From Lineus longissimus (Eukaryota > Nemertea > Pilidiophora > Heteronemertea > Lineidae): a stretch of DNA of 64,000 nt. Position numbers and translations under genes: made by a program. The notes under the pieces were generated by a model. That model saw only the letters and a program-made list of their open reading frames with translations, was not told where the DNA came from and searched no databases. The first letter of the stretch is position 1. Every line of letters starts with the position of its first letter. The stretch lies in contig NC_088326.1 in the NCBI RefSeq assembly GCF_910592395.1, positions 5,897,001-5,961,000 of the forward strand. The letters run 5' to 3'. Shown piece after piece: positions 19,158 through 40,020 of the stretch.

Positions 19158-19330
19158 ATGCACACTATTCCGATTTTCAGTGAGATTACCTTGCGTGATA
19201 TCTCGCTAAGTCTTATCAATATTTTCACTTTGTTTAAAGCAATTCTCAAAGCAGTTGTTCTGGTTTGTTTTGCTGTTTTGGGGTTGCCCCTTGTCCTCAG
19301 TGCTTCAAAGTCTCGTGTTGGTACGAGTGA
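19158..19330 (+). CDS. GPI-anchored iGluR-LBD-like protein, candidate exon 1 (signal peptide)
   Basis: The frame from the ATG at 19158 ends in a strong hydrophobic core (AVVLVCFAVLGLPLVLSASK) suitable for a signal peptide. The lead before it is rather long. Two possible donors, after 19318 (G|GTACGA) and 19330 (A|GTGACA), both leave phase 1, which is exactly what exon 2 needs. The choice of start and donor is inferred, and another upstream signal exon could be the real one. Confidence 0.4.
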
Positions 19331-19709
19331 CATATTTAAGGTGAAAATTGATAATTAAACGAGACTTACCTTATGTTGAAGTTTGGGAATTCATCAATTA
19401 CTCTGATCGAAGTATTGACTGCCGTCATAGGTTCTATTGAATAATGTATCATAAGCCTTCAGAATAAAATAAGGCTGGACATCTTTTCCAGGGGCACACT
19501 GCAACATCGGATAATGCGCAAGGTTCTGCTAATTACATTACAAGCTCAACGCCAACATACAGTGCTTTGAATATTGTCTCTTTACGGGTGTCGACCATTT
19601 CTACAGGCTACATATTATGCACCAGGAGTAGTATTTGGAAATTGATTGAACAATTTGGTCACATTGATGAATTTCAGGTTACCGGTATCTCCTTTCTCTC
19701 TCTTTTTAG

Positions 19710-19756
19710 TCCACCATGCGACGGGAGCCGAAAATGTTACAATTGGGACTGTTACG
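19710..19756 (+). CDS. GPI-anchored iGluR-LBD-like protein, exon 2
   Basis: A pyrimidine tract and TTTTTAG precede this 47-nt exon, and GTAAGA follows. After two bases completing a codon it reads HHATGAENVTIGTVT, then joins exon 3 (NKPWSY) in phase 0. The NVTIGTV strand followed by a Pro-Trp/Phe is how the first beta strand of the iGluR S1 lobe begins. The correct phase and sequence logic make this short exon credible. Confidence 0.7.
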
Positions 19757-20275
19757 GTAAGAACATGATCGGGACTGTGTATAATTTCTTCAAAGAAGAA
19801 GCTAAAAAGGGTACTTTTTCATTCTTTACATCAATTCAGATGTTCCGTTTTCATTGTATTACACGTCGGAGCGCATGAAACCTTTCGCCACTCAGAACTA
19901 CTTCGCATCTTCCATCTCTGTCTTCTAGGAATCAATCTAAACTCTCGAGGAGAGCAAATTCAGGTTAAGCGTTTTGTCCTAGGACGTAGAGATAACACAG
20001 TAATGGAATCGATCCCCAACATCTTGATAATGACTTAGGTGTAATCACCCCTGACACTGACCACCTTACTGGGCGTTTGAAGGAACACCTGGCCATGTTG
20101 ATAAAATGTATACGAAATGATGGTGGCAGCTTTCTGAATATGTTTCAAAAGAATATTGGCGCTAATGCTTTGTCGTCATTCCATAAAAGAAGTCATTGAA
20201 ATGGGGATATCGTTTTTTGACTTTATTATGGCCTACATCCATATCAATTGTTGACTTTGGTTATTTAATGATTAA

Positions 20276-20504
20276 CATTGAGTTCTTATATAGCGCGTTT
20301 CCATGTTTCCCTGACTGTTCAAAGCGCTTTTGGGATACCATATCCTTTTTGCCCCAGTCTCTACAGAAATCAATCTAGGGTTTCAAGGAACAACCAGAAG
20401 GCGCTAACTTGAAATCAACCAGGCATTAACTCGGTCGAGAGTCGAACCAACGACCTCTTGATCATGAGGCCGAATCTCTTCCACTGCCCTACACCGCTGC
20501 CCCA
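20276..20504 (-). repeat. tRNA-derived SINE, family 1 copy
   Basis: Read on the minus strand it has a tRNA-like head (GGTGTAGGGCAGTGGAAGAG, then GGTTCGACTCT). The body carries TCCTTGAAACC and AAAGCGCTTT, and it ends in GCGCTATATAAGAA. The same family occurs at 40021-40246 (minus) and 49930-50180 (plus). Confidence 0.75.
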
Positions 20505-21245
20505 ATATATATTTGGGTGTCATGATAATGCCCATTTTTGATAACCGAAACTATAGAAAAAACGTTTGCAGGTGTTTCTGTCTTACCGTTCTTTGCTCAT
20601 CATCATCATTTGGAAAAAATACCGAGTCATACCATTCTGTTTGGGCTCCTTTTGCTATAGGGACTGAATATTTTTACATCCAACCTATTTTCAAATGTAT
20701 TCCGGCCACACGGGATTATTAGGGGACTTAGCTGAAAACATTGTTTTCATCAAACATCTGGGTCCCCTAAATGGGTCTCCGTGAAGGAATAAATTGTAGA
20801 TATGGACATAAATTGTAAGGATAAAGTGTGCGAGAATAAGGGGATGTGAAAGTCTTCTAAAGAACTTTGATTAAAATATTTTTGGCCATGAATATCTAGG
20901 TCCCCTAGGGGAGGGTCCCCGTGAAGGAATGAATGATAGATATGAACATATATTGGTTGGATTTTAGTACAAAATGTAATACGGGTGTCACTACCGGGTG
21001 GCTACAATATACATGCACGAATGACTCGACCTCATATCGGGCCATAGATGATTATTCAGGCTCTTTTAAACAGATTTTGTAGACCCTTTTATTATGGCCA
21101 TGTTTTTAACAGCATGAATATGGGGTCATTTAAAATATCATCCTGTTTTAAAAAGTGGGACGTGTTTTTTTAGATCACCCGATATATAGTTACAGTTTTC
21201 AGCATTTGTTCAAGTTGCAATATCTTTGTTATTATAATACTTCAG

Positions 21246-21437
21246 AATAAACCATGGTCGTACACAGAGGATGGTAAACAGACAGGCCTCGCTGTGGACA
21301 TCCTCATGAAGATATTCGAATATCAAGGCACTAAGGATAAGTTCACTCCGCAGCTGACCGAAGATGCTGACGGCGTGATTGGTAGGAAGGAAAATGGGGC
21401 CTGGACTGCGGGGTTGATTAAGGACCTTATAGCCCAG
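21246..21437 (+). CDS. GPI-anchored iGluR-LBD-like protein, exon 3 (S1 lobe)
   Basis: Sixty-four codons lie between TACTTCAG and CAG|GTTAGT, phase 0 at both ends. The start NKPWSYTEDGKQTGLAVDIL matches the S1 pattern of ionotropic glutamate receptors and bacterial family-3 solute-binding proteins: a Pro followed by an aromatic, then G-x-x-V/I-D-I/L. It continues to GVIGRKENGAWTAGLIKDL, the counterpart of the G-x-W-x-G-x-x-x-D-L motif. This lobe would form half of a bilobed ligand-binding clamp outside the cell. The call rests on motif order, not on a database search. Confidence 0.8.
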
Positions 21438-21982
21438 GTTAGTCATATTGCAAACAATATTTTTGTTGACCGAGAATATGTATAAATGTCCACGGGAAAT
21501 CCGATGGCGCAACATACAGTGTGATTATAAAACTAGCTTGGTGTTGCATGTTATAATTGGAATTGTGATTATTTGAATGAATATCTACCTTCTGGCAAGA
21601 ATTGATGAGGACTAAGAATATGGAAGCACATACCATAGTTTGTATCCTATTTAGCATTAGGTTCCAAATTCTGACAATAGGGGGCCATCGCTCCTATTGG
21701 CTAGGTATTAATTGATTTTTGTCACAAAATACATACCTCAAATTGTTTGACTAAATTCAGAACAGCTTAATGAGCTAATAATGAAACGATATTTAAATCA
21801 GGTCCTAAAACCCCTCCAAAACATGCGAGTACCCACAAAATTTGCTTTAAAGGCCCGATACTTCTCTTCGGCAGCAAATGCCCATAAAGATGATGCTGAA
21901 ATCTGAAAAACTTGAAATACTGTTTCTTTGTTGCACTGTATAAACTTTTGTTTATTTACACCTTCAATGTTTCCTCCTGCAG

Positions 21983-22126
21983 AAAGATGGGATGCAGATG
22001 GGTGCCGCTGGCGTCATGATCACGGACGACTTGGAGGCCGAAACCAAATTGATGTGGTCGATGCCATACCTTACATACAACGTCTCCATGCTGATGGAAA
22101 AAGATAAGGATGTAAAATCTATTATG
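21983..22126 (+). CDS. GPI-anchored iGluR-LBD-like protein, exon 4 (end of S1)
   Basis: Forty-eight codons, phase 0, lie between CTCCTGCAG and ATG|GTGAGA. GAAGVMITDDLEAETKLMW through SMPYL corresponds to the S1 stretch that in true receptors reads x-P-L-T-I-T-x-x-R then hydrophobic-D-F-S-x-P-F. The arginine that binds the ligand's alpha-carboxylate is not present: an ungapped alignment puts Ala or Glu there. The exon ends at MLMEKDKDVKSIM, where channels would continue into the first membrane helix. Here the next exon goes straight into S2. Confidence 0.8.
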
Positions 22127-22159
22127 GTGAGAATGGTCCATCTACGACAAACTGTAACC

Positions 22160-22418
22160 TTAAAGCGAATTTCACTCAAGCAATACCATGCCCTTCCCGC
22201 TCTGCATGCAGTCGGGAGCAAAGCAATTGATGCATCATCAAGTCATACGCAAGTTTCTGAATGGAACTCTATTGCGGGCTCTGGTGTCCACATCAGGCCG
22301 AATGTAGCTTTCTGATCTGCGCCGGACATTAAAATAGGGAACTGATTGGTACACTAAGTACATCTTCACCGCCCGAAAAAAAGTAAAAAGTAGGCTCAAT
22401 CACTGTTCTTTAGCCTTG
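22160..22418. mobile_element. TTAA-ended MITE, decayed copy in intron 4
   Basis: Starts TTAAAGCGAATTTCACTCAA and keeps the family's GCAATTGATGCATCATCAAG-type core and a GTAGGCTCAATCAC block near the right end. It matches 42641-42895 and the better preserved copy at 54629-54889. Confidence 0.5.
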
Positions 22419-23156
22419 AAGCACCATGCCTTATTTTGCCTTGCATTCGACACCAGGAGAGCATAACAACTCTGGAAGGTATATTTGGTCCTCTCCCCCC
22501 TTTTAGTGTCTCAAGTAGGTATTTGATTGTATTCATTGCGTGAACTGACTCGTCAGCAGTTGCGTAGTCGTCTTCCTTTATTGTCCCCGGAGTTGATTTT
22601 AGCTTCCTTCCCCCATACGGTGCCTCCGTCAAAGCCTCTGCTTTGTCCAATAGGGTGATTGTTCCACTTGCATCGTCCTTCCCTCTTCCGCAACGGTCTT
22701 CACCATATGATGAGGGGCAAAACTGATCAGCAAGGATTATTCACCAATGGGTCGATGCCATATTTTTTGAAGTACAGTACCTTCAACATGACCATCCTAC
22801 AAAGCGGAATTTTTGTCGAAGTCGTAAAAGGAGTCAGGGATACCGTAAACCCTGAGGAAAATCCACCGATATAACTATGTCTACCCAGTATAAGAAAATT
22901 ATGCTCGGCCCAAGTGAATGATTAGTATTTTTTGTAAATTACCAACTATAGCATGATTAGCTGGCAAAAGGATTTCATCAAATGACGCAGCCGCGCCAGC
23001 GGGTATTAAAATACCCATTCGACAAGTAGTTATCCCGTAATGAAGAGCACAGCCAGACCCCAAGCTGTATGTCTTCCCAATTATACTATATGGGAAAATG
23101 TCCATCAACTCGATCATCACTTATTTTAACTTAGAATATTATGTCTGTTAATCTAG

Positions 23157-23423
23157 GATGGTCACACTAACAACATGACCTTCGTAGTGGTTAAAGATGG
23201 ACCGATTCATGTGATGTTTACAAAGTGCGAGACCCTGTTGACAGATGCCACCGAGAAAACATCATGTAAGGCTATCAACGATAAGTTTACCGCGGATGCA
23301 ACTCTCCTGGTCAAAGACGCCGCTGCTGCACTCAAGGCAGTCAAGGAAAAAGACTCGGACATGGTTTTTCTGACGGATGGGGCGACTGCCAAGTACCACG
23401 CTAGACTCAACTGCGAACTTAAG
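23157..23423 (+). CDS. GPI-anchored iGluR-LBD-like protein, exon 5 (S2 lobe)
   Basis: Eighty-nine codons, phase 0, lie between TTAATCTAG and AAG|GTTAGT. DGHTNNMTFVVVKDGPIHVM corresponds to the start of S2, which follows the third membrane helix in channels. Further on, MVFLTDGATAKYHARLNCEL matches the S2 A-F-L-x-E/D-x-x-x-x-x-Y ... N-C-x-L motif. The acidic residue (Asp) that contacts the ligand amino group is kept, as is the first cysteine of the conserved S2 disulfide. No frame between 22127 and 23156 shows a pore loop or the SYTANLAAF-type third helix, and the phases splice exon 4 directly to this exon. Confidence 0.8.
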
Positions 23424-23973
23424 GTTAGTATGCCCATTAACCATGAGTTGCCTCGTACCCTAGTGGTTTATAACACTGTGAACTCCCGCGCAATAGGGCC
23501 CGGGTTAGATCCCGGGGAAACCCAGGCTTTGTATTCTATATGAACCGGCGTGGATTGAAGGAACTAAAATTGCTGGCCCTTCACAGTCCTTCGAATGAAA
23601 CTTAAAACCGATGTTCCTTGTATCTGTTGTCTATGCTAGGGCAGGTAAAAGACCCCACCAAGTAAGAAACATTGAGTAGCTTGCGTGGATTCCCCCTCCT
23701 TGGCCGAAGGCCATGGGCATAGTCAATGATGACTGCGCCCCAGTAAATGGAAGAAGACGAAGTAACCTGCTGTATATTGATGTGGAAGGACTCTGTATAC
23801 TGTATTGGTCATAGGTCTGGTCTGTTAAGTTAACACCATCTTGTCCATGAACCATGAAATCTCATTTTATCTGCTGATTACGCTGTAAAACCATTGGCAA
23901 TCATTCTGTTATATGCACAATTCTAGGGTTAATATTTTAGCGATCCCGATCAAATTATTCTTTATTTATTTAG

Positions 23974-24225
23974 GTCGTTGATGGCGGCATGTTTCCAAAA
24001 GGCGCCTGCAAATATGCCTTTCCAATCAACAAAGATGCAGCAACAGCTCAAGTTGAGTTGAAGCCGGCAATAGATGCGACCATCAAACTGTTCACAGGTA
24101 AAGGAAAAGATGACATCAAGACGATTGAGACCACGTACCTCTCGCCCAGCACGTGTGGATCATCAGGCCTCTCATTCACCCTTGCAGCACTCCTACTCTC
24201 TGTATTTGTGTCCAAATTATTGTAA
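23974..24225 (+). CDS. GPI-anchored iGluR-LBD-like protein, terminal exon 6 (end of S2 and GPI signal)
   Basis: Eighty-three codons plus TAA follow TTTATTTAG. VVDGGMFPKGACKYAFPINK continues S2: true receptors have a glycine-rich turn and a G-Y-G/A-x-P-x strand here. A helix and the second disulfide cysteine follow (LSPSTC). The chain then reads CGSSG and a hydrophobic tail LSFTLAALLLSVFVSKLL ending at the stop with no cytoplasmic residues. That is the layout of a GPI-attachment signal (small residues, short spacer, 12-18 hydrophobic residues). A single C-terminal membrane anchor is the alternative. The whole protein is about 360 residues. It should sit outside the cell and bind a small ligand without forming a channel. 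It converges with the class C GPCR gene. Confidence 0.8.
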   Translation, partial: VVDGGMFPKGACKYAFPINKDAATAQVELKPAIDATIKLFTGKGKDDIKTIETTYLSPSTCGSSGLSFTLAALLLSVFVSKLL

Positions 24226-33406: not shown

Positions 33407-34719
33407 TCAGAGTTTAGTACACACCACTGCTTCAACAGCTTTAGTATTCTGTTTCTCTTCTTTACCATGCACAACACAAAGATTTGTCACACTCGAACAC
33501 GTGGAAACGGCAGATTTAGCCGAACCATCAGAATTCCGCCGAGGCCTTGAGGCACAGTCCAGTGGATCCAACTTGGGAGACCCCTGGCTGTATTTAGTTT
33601 GCATCCGTGGCTCAGCAGAATCCGCCCGCTCTCGGCTGCCTTCGAAGGCCAATTCCCGGCCACGCGGAGATGGTTTAGGGCTGGGCCTCGGCGTCCCTGC
33701 GCTCATCTGGTTGACCCGCATGGTTGACGCATTGGAAACCTTTCGAGAATCGCCGCCTATGTTTGTTCCTACGTCAGTGCCCATTGTATGCTGAATCGTC
33801 TGTTCTCGGACATAGTTCGGGTCATTTTTCTCAGCTTGGAAAAGGATGATTCGAATCTTCGGAAAGAACATGAAGCCTAAAATGAAGAGAGCCGCGAAAA
33901 TTGCCGCGAAGCACATAATTGACGTTCGTGATTTTCCGTGAGACCCGAAATACGCCGGAAGACATACGATCCAGACTAAACATAACATAAACATGGAGAA
34001 GCTTAAATGTTTGGCCTCGTTGAAGTTTTCAGGGAGTTTCCTCGCCTTGAAAGCTAAAAACGAACAGACTATCGAGAGAAATGCCACGTAGGACATTGAG
34101 ATAAGCTGCACAGCGAACCAGTCAGATCCGCATCTTATGACGACGATGTCAGGGAAAGAGTAATCTCTCACCGCCTCGGGGGTCAAGATCAGGGAACAGG
34201 TCACCCCAATAATGAGGGCAATCAGCGTCAACCCTGTCACGAACGCTGCCTGCTTGTGCTCGTGTTTGAATCTTGAACTCCGTGAGCGCACCAACGCACT
34301 GAACCTTGCGTAGAACACAGTCAGCAGTCGTTGCGTCTTCGTTAACATAATTGCAACACACAAGGTAAAAACAAACCCAAAATACACCGGCTGAACTGCG
34401 CAAGAAAGGTCAGTTGGAATCCCGATATACAAGAACGGCAGCACGTAGCACAAGGCAATGGCAGTCAATAATACATAACTCAAGTTTCTGTTTGATCCCT
34501 TGACGACAGGGGTGTCACGATATTTGATGAATACTGCGAGAACGAATAGTGTGATCAGGAAGAACAGGAAGGAGAGCACCATGGCAAAGATGGCCGCCAC
34601 GTCATCCCAGCGGAGGAACTCGAGAGGCATCTCCACACACTCGGTGTGGTCGGAGTTATTGGTCTCGCCGAGAGGGCAGTCCATGCAAACACCAGAGTTG
34701 GATACGTTGCTGATCTCAC
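33407..34719 (-). CDS. mGluR-like class C GPCR, last exon (end of cysteine-rich domain, 7TM, tail)
   Basis: This exon encodes 436 residues to a TGA. It begins GEISNVSNSGVC, the end of the cysteine-rich domain. The seven helices follow. Numbering from the Met at 34684, they lie near residues 29-53, 67-88, 99-121, 146-167, 188-212, 227-248 and 254-276. Class C hallmarks are clear: NLSYVLLT in helix 2, LTKTQR after helix 3, FNEAKHLSFSMF entering helix 6, W-I-V-C-L-P-A-Y-F-G in helix 6, and FFPKIRIIL at the end of helix 7. Cys95 and Cys185 can form the usual extracellular disulfide. These features are nearest to metabotropic glutamate receptors. The cytoplasmic tail of about 145 residues is rich in Ser, Pro and Arg, and ends VVCTKL, a class I PDZ-binding form. 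It should signal through G proteins. Confidence in the family is high; the exact subtype is open. Confidence 0.95.
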
Positions 34720-34779
34720 CTGGAAATACGAAATGTATGCTATAACAACACTAACACGTCATAAACATATCACTTTGCC

Positions 34780-38162: not shown

Positions 38163-38438
38163 TAAAGCCTGCTTATGCTAAGCTCATCCAAGTTCAACTG
38201 AAAGGTGTCAGACTGGGCTTAAAGTGCGAAGACAGATGAAGTATACTGTCATGCTCACAGTTGATATCAACCCCAACTTTAGAAAAAGCTTTTAACATTA
38301 TGCATAAGCATCAGCTAACAGTAAACTAGACTTGGTTCATGATTATTTTGAACAACCTGTCATATATATACGCTCCACAACTGATTGGGTCGAACACTCA
38401 TAGCGGTAGCACACGACTACGCGGCCATTTCTACGTAC

Positions 38439-39192
38439 CAATTTTTTCTCGGTTGAGTATTAATCTCTCTTTTCGTCTGCCATCCCAACCACCGACATCA
38501 ACATACATGAGTGACTTCCCGTCTCGTGTTCGTTGGATGTTGTTGAGACGATAACTTCCAGAAGGATCGCCATTTTCATCAAACTTCATCTGACCTTGGA
38601 GTCCTTGAAATTTCACATTTCTGACTGACCGCAAAAAGTCATATTCATTGATGGTCAAATTCTTTCGGCATACGCCGTTCGGGCAGATCACGGGGTTCAA
38701 AGCGAGAGCGAGAGCAGTAACAGCATCGATGACGTAAGGTGTCTTCCCAAGCGGCAGGAACGTTCCATTTTTATTGGTGGCAGAAGCTGGGTTTAGGTTG
38801 TAGTCTAATAAATGGGAGCATCGGACAAACTCACTCGGCAGACGAGGTGGCGTTGGGTCGGTTGTAGGGATACCTGTCGCGTTCAGTGCCAGAACCACCG
38901 ATGAGTCAATATTTGCTTCCCGTTCAACTCGGTTGTTGCTCGGATCGTAGCCGTTTAAGGAACAATTATAGTCAGTCATCATGATTTCGTCGATCCATGG
39001 ATGCTTGCGGATGAGTTCATTCAGAGACAAGTTATGGATGTACTGGTTATATCCATCAGTGTTTCCGCTCTCCGGTAGCAACCCAATGGTCCCAAGAACA
39101 ACATTATGGTCGATATTCAATACTGCTGCCTCATCACCCCAACTCTCGGATGCAATCCACGTTTTTCCAGTCAGGCCTTGTCGTTCAGCCTC
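38439..39192 (-). CDS. mGluR-like class C GPCR, flytrap exon (lobe 2 and C-terminal part)
   Basis: Between TTTTTGACAG and ATTG|GTACGT lie 251 codons plus one base. It opens EAERQGLTGKTWIASESWGD, the standard G-K-T-W-I-A-S-x-x-W of family C flytraps, then VVLGTIGLLP. Asp after SWG and Lys in LGKTPYVIDAV align with the acidic and basic residues that contact glutamate's amino and gamma-carboxyl groups in mGluRs (aligned from memory). FQGLQGQMKFDENGDPSGSY is the usual end of the domain. Several N-x-S/T sites (NLSL, NCSL, NATG, NLTI) suit an extracellular location. It joins the cysteine-rich exon in frame. Confidence 0.93.
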
Positions 39193-40020
39193 CTGTCAAA
39201 AACAGATGAAAAATAAAATGTATGATTATATAGCGCTTTTAACTGTACATGTTTTGTCTTGAAGCACTTCACATCCATCCCCGAGCCAAATTTAGAAACT
39301 ATTCTGTAGAAACCAATTAAGGACCGCATATATGCAACACTTTGCCACTTCAGGCCAGTTGATAAAGTACCGCCGGGGCGAGTGTCACATGGGCGAGCCT
39401 CGAACACACGACTATTTGAGTCACTCTTTCATTGTGTGCCACAACGCTTTGCAAGAAGTCAAAATGCAGTGGTAAGAAAGTAACCAACTGGAAAAATTCA
39501 ACCACTCGATGTCGAAGTCTTTTGACCTTTAGCTTTTGAAAAACCTTTACAGATGTTTCGGCCAACACAAATATGCACCCCGTCAGGGCCCCAATACCCC
39601 GACGCGAATGCCTATCTCATTGTCTGAAATTGAAATCAGTAGTTCAAACAATGAGACACGCGTTGGCGTTGGCGTATATCGGGGCCTTTACAAAAACTCC
39701 CAAATATGAACAAAACAATTGTATTTAAGATCACAGGTTTTTCACATTGCTGAAAACCTCTAAGGAGTACATATTTGTGTTGGTCAAAAACCATGTGAGG
39801 TTTTTCATGATCAAAAGCTCAAAAACCTTAACAGAAGGTGAACAACAAAACCTTGCCTTTTAGCATGTTTCTTTGGGATAATTCAAATTTGGTATACCAG
39901 TGTACGTAGTTACAATTGGAAAATATCAAATCATAGTCAAAACATGATTTTGATATCACCAAATCATAAGCTCGTTTGCATTAACAATCAGCTGTAATAT
40001 AAAAATATTGATAATATCGA

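Follow-up and report, generated by a model that had tools for sequence, protein, structure and literature searches.

A candidate channel-free ionotropic glutamate receptor clamp, putatively tethered to the cell surface, in the nemertean Lineus longissimus

Can the ligand-binding clamp of an ionotropic glutamate receptor (iGluR) be kept by an animal as a protein of its own, apart from the channel? The question is raised by the gene LOC135503287 of the nemertean Lineus longissimus, for which a genome of 391 Mb has been published (PMC8593623). The gene was analysed here in a window of 64,000 nucleotides (nt), C20:5897001-5961000 (C20 being contig NC_088326.1) of an assembly of 391,118,348 bases. 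An earlier note on this DNA had read exons 2-6 as the two halves, S1 then S2, of an iGluR-type clamp with no membrane part between them. An even chance is given here to the explanation that the gene encodes an intact animal-type iGluR ligand-binding domain from which the M1-pore-M3 segment has been lost, kept as a separate, exported and putatively glycosylphosphatidylinositol (GPI)-tethered protein for a ligand other than glutamate.

Gene model and fold of the clamp

Exons 2-6, all bounded by AG/GT, translate to 299 amino acids (aa) that match NCBI protein P0001 ('uncharacterized protein LOC135503287 [Lineus longissimus]', 317 aa) at 100% over that span. The first coding exon of the NCBI model lies outside the window, 38 kb upstream (C20:5878423-5878473), and encodes MESKCLAVLCVIFAVSA, aa 1-17, again 100% identical to P0001; its donor, G/GTGAGT, is in phase 1, and Val18 is completed by exon 2. 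The exon 1 placed at 19158 by the earlier note is unused in this model and has to be given up. That the public gene model spans a first intron of 38 kb suggests, indirectly, transcript support. Within the window, all on the plus strand, exon 2 (19710..19756, 47 nt, phase-1 acceptor) encodes the end of the signal-peptide region and the first S1 strand (VHHATGAENVTIGTVT, its V split with exon 1), and exon 3 (21246..21437) the first part of S1 (NKPWSYTEDG...LIKDLIAQ). Exon 4 (21983..22126) carries the S1 end, the S1-S2 linker LMEKDKDVKSIM and the S2 start, as judged from splice sites, identity to P0001 and alignment to crystal constructs. Exon 5 (23157..23423) holds the main S2 portion (DGHTNN...NCELK), assigned, like exon 3, from splice sites, translation and identity to P0001. 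Exon 6 (23974..24225) contributes the S2 end, C295, a hydrophobic GPI-signal-like tail, GSSGLSFTLAALLLSVFVSKLL, and the stop. The lengths of exons 3, 4, 5 and 6 are divisible by three and these exons are joined in phase 0, as had been stated for the joining of S1 to S2; the transition itself, however, falls within exon 4 and not at the exon 4/5 border.

The best matches of P0001 among solved structures (PDB) were kainate receptors, led by the GluK4 binding domain (E 2.7e-9), and the first bacterial protein followed at E 0.0016, which disfavours a horizontally acquired bacterial solute-binding protein. PF10613 (Lig_chan-Glu_bd) scored 26.9-27.1 bits, below its curated cut-off of 30 bits, and PF00497 (bacterial solute-binding family 3) 24.7-25.1 bits, where the cut-off is 26.4; an NCBIfam scan returned EhuB, far under its cut-off. 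Exon 3 was matched by an S1 hidden Markov model (HMM) at E 6.7e-4. Residues 4-278 also matched (E 1.1e-7) the 674-position profile of phrog_10776, a phage family with no assigned function, probably through a clamp domain inside a longer phage protein. Both cysteines of the iGluR S2 disulfide pair, C231 and C295, are kept: each is aligned with a cysteine in 28 of 29 receptor rows, the remaining row having a gap at C295.

Against S1S2 crystal constructs, P0001 aligned gap-free from the S1 end through the artificial Gly-Thr linker and the first S2 residues, to D146, after which a one-residue gap follows; a 40-row alignment (A2), mostly of full-length channels, placed the S2 start in the channel region instead. 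Since the alignment is gap-free across the S1 end, the linker and the S2 start, the natural joint is of about the construct's length, and the earlier likening of this protein to an isolated binding-domain construct fits this. The structure predicted for P0001, with receptor rows chosen for good alignment at the joint, is compatible with the bilobed iGluR clamp, the fold on which the earlier note had asked for a check. Taken together, the GluK4 match and the fold match exceed chance, and with the AG/GT borders, the identity to P0001 and the alignment they uphold the description of exons 2-6 as an S1-then-S2 clamp.

Channel, ligand pocket and tail

Channel exons would be expected in intron 4 (22127..23156), and none were found. 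Over 19 residues, hydropathy in P0001 rises above 1.0 at two peaks only, 1.87 at the putative signal peptide and 1.94 in the C-terminal tail, and no membrane helix lies between S1 and S2. A locally built channel HMM, run on intron 4 with filters off, gave E 1.5 at best and found no channel; the three frames of the intron, compared with Pfam, likewise contained no channel, the only match being DUF870 at E 0.24. Over the window and the scanned flank the channel profile found nothing better than E 0.34. Genome-wide, 65 matches to PF00060 (M1-pore-M3) were listed; among them the sole C20 match is at 8.07 Mb and none is near C20:5.9 Mb. Two candidates within the intron were rejected: an M1-like 'PGVDFSFLPPY' (tblastn E 0.038) ranked 9th among 61 pieces, tied with an overlapping window piece, and a decayed duplicate of exon 4 at about 22752, SMPYFLKYSTFNMTIL, was equalled by 14 of 238 control windows. 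Thus the claim that neither membrane helices nor a pore loop separate S1 from S2 is supported by hydropathy, alignment and the channel searches of the intron and its surroundings, and the additional membrane exons sought between 22126 and 23157 did not appear. Because the channel was tested for and not found, P0001 falls outside the iGluR channels and does not fit the definition of Protostome ionotropic receptors (IRs; PF10613 plus PF00060).

The ligand pocket was compared with the 29 receptor rows at contact positions that we take, from GluA2, to be R485, Thr655, Glu705, Tyr450, Thr480, Pro478 and S654. The agonist arginine (R485), which grips the carboxylate of the ligand and is present in 29 of 29 rows, is Ala116 in P0001, and Thr655 (26 Thr, 3 Ser) is Ile162. 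Tyr450 (Tyr in 22/29) is replaced by Ile78 and Thr480 (Thr in 23/29) by Met109. Pro478 corresponds to Gly107, but Gly also occurs here in five of the 29 rows. Glu705, which is Glu in 28/29, is Asp219; Asp is also found at this position in the Lineus iGluR-like loci L002, L003, L063 and L065, and since several such loci share it, it is not special to channel-less genes. Most of the canonical positions for amino-acid contact are thus altered, and the cleft of P0001 is not a standard glutamate site, although amino acids would still be possible ligands. The earlier note had proposed a ligand sink among other roles; a plain glutamate sink is unlikely because the ligand-binding arginine and threonine are lost.

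The N-terminus, MESKCLAVLCVIFAVSAV, fits a signal peptide by sequence and by hydropathy (2.54 over 15 residues). After C295, GSSG and 18 mostly hydrophobic residues, LSFTLAALLLSVFVSKLL, precede the stop (2.26 over 15 residues). A hydrophobic C-terminal tail resembling a GPI signal is therefore present, as had been noted, and CGSSG followed by LSFTLAALLLSVFVSKLL plausibly suits such a signal, with a site near G296/S297 that would put the lower lobe at the membrane. We infer that the signal peptide would direct P0001 to the endoplasmic reticulum, where the tail past C295 may be swapped for a GPI anchor near G296/S297, the lower lobe staying membrane-near as in iGluRs. The cleft would then shut on a ligand other than glutamate, and a partner, whether receptor or transporter, might sense the closure, in the way that bacterial lipid-anchored solute-binding proteins hand on their ligands. 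A co-receptor, or a protein of chemosensory or other ligand capture, is judged the most likely role, with a decoy subunit and a relic as its rivals.

A second gene and competing explanations

A second gene of similar layout, L049 (C20:5778058-5781687, minus strand), consists of three exons with phase-matched splicing into S1-S2. Its 298-aa protein, L049p, is AMPA-like; it scored 76.5 bits with PF10613 and matched the GluA2 binding-domain chain 1ftk in one continuous alignment (E 2.2e-32), with the S1-S2 joint reading MYR-EENSQEPPFNKTLSDIA. In the joint intron, neither Pfam nor a local profile, whose best match was at E 1.2, found a channel. The C-terminus of L049p is hydrophobic, and the stop comes 40 residues from the last cysteine, that cysteine included. 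The agonist arginine is replaced here too, and both proteins have a proline at the S654 position that is absent from the 29 rows. The introns flanking the first S1 exon lie in the same places, in phase 0, in the two genes; the second of these places is common to many Lineus iGluR loci (36 of 90 Lineus PF10613 matches start at profile position 73-78) so that it is a sign of iGluR descent and does not single out the pair. The genes lie on one contig, 97 kb apart, on opposite strands. A two-sequence comparison of the proteins gave E 2e-5 with 26% identity over 77 aa; since L049p did not find P0001 in a genome-wide search, the tie between them is judged from their layout, their location and a small number of residues. 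The amino-terminal domain PF01094 was not found on the L049 strand in three stretches upstream (C20:5783001-5813000), and the first exons of L049 were not located. Two of these stretches, L072 (C20:5783001-5793000) and L074 (5803001-5813000), contain Mutator-like and DDE_1/Tc5-type transposase matches. The clamp gene and its similar neighbour suggest that in this animal a tethered binding protein was derived from a receptor. More tentatively, the two may represent a novel kind of nemertean surface protein: two iGluR clamps within 150 kb in Lineus, channel-free, re-anchored at the C-terminus and with the glutamate site remodelled to take a different ligand, which would act as tethered binders or co-receptors.

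Further channel-less loci were sought by comparing the 90 PF10613 matches in the genome with those of PF00060. Five candidates were read as stretches of 5.5-7 kb with sensitive local profiles, the reading leaving out C6:6574735 and, near C17:13.43 Mb, two copies. L046, L047, L048 and L050 were rejected, as channel segments were seen with local profiles, leaving only L049, one of five, without. C14:12704789 was also rejected, its 3.2-kb locus (L039) showing a channel start. At C17:13424396-13436100, diverged iGluR-like binding-domain exons stand in tandem, with three PF10613 copies and no PF00060 nearby; in L050, the one copy read from this array, local profiles show both channel and M4 segments. 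A possible third, broken copy, L071 (at C17:13168004), has a stretch (C17:13168010-13168168) that resembles the S1-S2 joint of L049p in one frame and contains a stop; it outscored ten local control stretches and was rejected (genome-wide E 0.44), since a match picked from the whole genome is not significant at that level. Neither the window nor C20:5783001-5833000 yielded further members, C20:5833001-5876922 and 5879974-5897000 being unread, and P0001 itself matched only its own exons and one further site (E 4.9) in an unrelated-looking frame of the genome. In the third of three protein-database searches, with three GluK fragments added (827 proteins), PF10613 without PF00060 occurred in nine of the 120 listed: P0001; P0002-P0005, which look like laboratory constructs; and P0039, P0090, P0102 and P0120, which are gene fragments or models. 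Downstream of the clamp gene, on the minus strand of the window (33407-34750 and 38431-39195), lies a class C G protein-coupled receptor, a metabotropic-type clamp receptor (7tm_3 E 8.2e-65, ANF_receptor E 1.8e-14).

Several observations weigh against the explanation preferred here. Exon 5 matched a generic S2 profile only at E 0.13. The choice of rows for the structure model itself favours the bilobed fold, and a model built on only four rows reached a predicted local distance difference test score (pLDDT) of just 31.7. The first two protein-database searches (5,595 and 7,997 scored candidates) returned P0001 alone and no orthologue. The spacer ahead of the hydrophobic stretch is short for a GPI signal, and against 8 invertebrate M4 segments the tail scored no better than composition shuffles (as good in up to 263/400). 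In the S1-S2 intron of L049, the channel query P0063 gave a tblastn match on the opposite strand (E 0.002, 24.6 bits), which is taken as chance because, with 74 queries, scores of 24.6-25.0 bits were also attained by 2 of the 61 pieces of the window. Finally, some epsilon receptors lacking R485 are still predicted to bind glutamate (PMC12226733).

The rival that survives best, though it is rather unlikely, accepts the channel-less clamp and rejects the GPI anchor: the tail would remain in place as a short single-pass anchor, which might derive from M4, or else the protein would be shed in soluble form. The usual rule of thumb for membrane segments is a hydropathy of 1.6 over 19 residues, which the tail exceeds (1.94); the tail of L049p is longer and more hydrophobic still (2.31). 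Compared with the M4 segments of 87 relatives, the P0001 tail beats its shuffles (as good in a median of 0/400, maximum 32/400). Kinship to M4 is thus possible, yet it fails against the 8 invertebrate M4s; in the tail, SKLL is preceded by no more than about 14 hydrophobic residues, and a basic cytoplasmic end is lacking. It is improbable that P0001 is a decoy or regulatory partner, a free clamp that would pair back-to-back with the clamps of conventional iGluRs in Lineus, tuning or blocking these receptors; the fold is that of a dimerising iGluR domain and the genome offers many iGluR loci (the 65 PF00060 matches listed), but P0001 is only 17-24% identical to the 29 receptor rows. Quite improbable, too, is the decay of a former receptor gene into a functionless relic, whether expressed or silent, as the strong divergence, the lost pocket residues and the lack of an orthologue in the database searches might suggest; six coding exons remain open, in phase and with AG/GT borders, the fold-level residues, cysteine pair, putative export signal and tail are retained, and a second gene shares the layout. 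That real channel exons were overlooked by the earlier reader, NCBI and this analysis is very unlikely indeed: Pfam did miss divergent channels elsewhere, in four of five Pfam-channel-less loci, but the sensitive profiles that revealed those gave nothing beyond the values above for intron 4, the window and the flank, and exon 4 itself continues through the linker into S2.

Comparison with known systems

A natural, tethered iGluR clamp without a channel, the explanation favoured here, can be set beside four known systems. With the S1S2 domains of iGluRs (kainate GluK2, GluK3 and GluK4, AMPA GluA2; PF10613), P0001 shares the bilobed fold, the S1-S2 order, C231/C295 and a linker as short as in the constructs; it differs in being natural, in lacking M1-pore-M3, in having its own putative signal peptide and terminal tail, and in the replacement of the agonist Arg, Thr and Tyr. 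The clamp of metabotropic glutamate receptors (mGluRs) belongs to a different family from that of iGluRs.

SmGBP, a truncated mGluR of Schistosoma mansoni, is likewise a lophotrochozoan Venus-flytrap without a membrane part and was found to be membrane-associated (PMC3206071). Unlike P0001 it has the mGluR-type clamp and binds glutamate, and its authors report no high-probability GPI site. The earlier statement that no well-described family has this layout can be kept for iGluR-type clamps, of which no case was recognised in the literature searched, whereas SmGBP provides a metabotropic-type precedent. Protostome IRs also have a diverged clamp, are chemosensory and are marked by loss of the glutamate-contacting residues (PMC2924276); they retain the ion channel, and none was found in the P0001 gene. 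A large survey of animal iGluRs (PMC6307864) dropped sequences with fewer than four conserved SYTANLAAF residues. Since this filter removes them, channel-less clamps would be absent from that survey, and they may have gone unnoticed elsewhere.

Glutamate receptors have been proposed to arise by fusion of a stand-alone bacterial-type clamp with a membrane part (PMC3206071). In Lineus the animal appears to have reversed that fusion, yielding a natural version of the crystallographers' construct and a test of the clamp acting alone. Bacterial PF00497 proteins, lipid-anchored in Gram-positives, are stand-alone clamps as P0001 is, and P0001 matches their family below threshold; it differs from them in being closer to animal iGluRs, in its intron-bearing gene and in its iGluR-type cysteine pair. 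By its sequence, P0001 would work in the manner of a stand-alone solute-binding protein, and if the nemertean clamps are indeed re-anchored, they would amount to a second invention, by an animal, of the lipid-anchored solute-binding protein known from bacteria.

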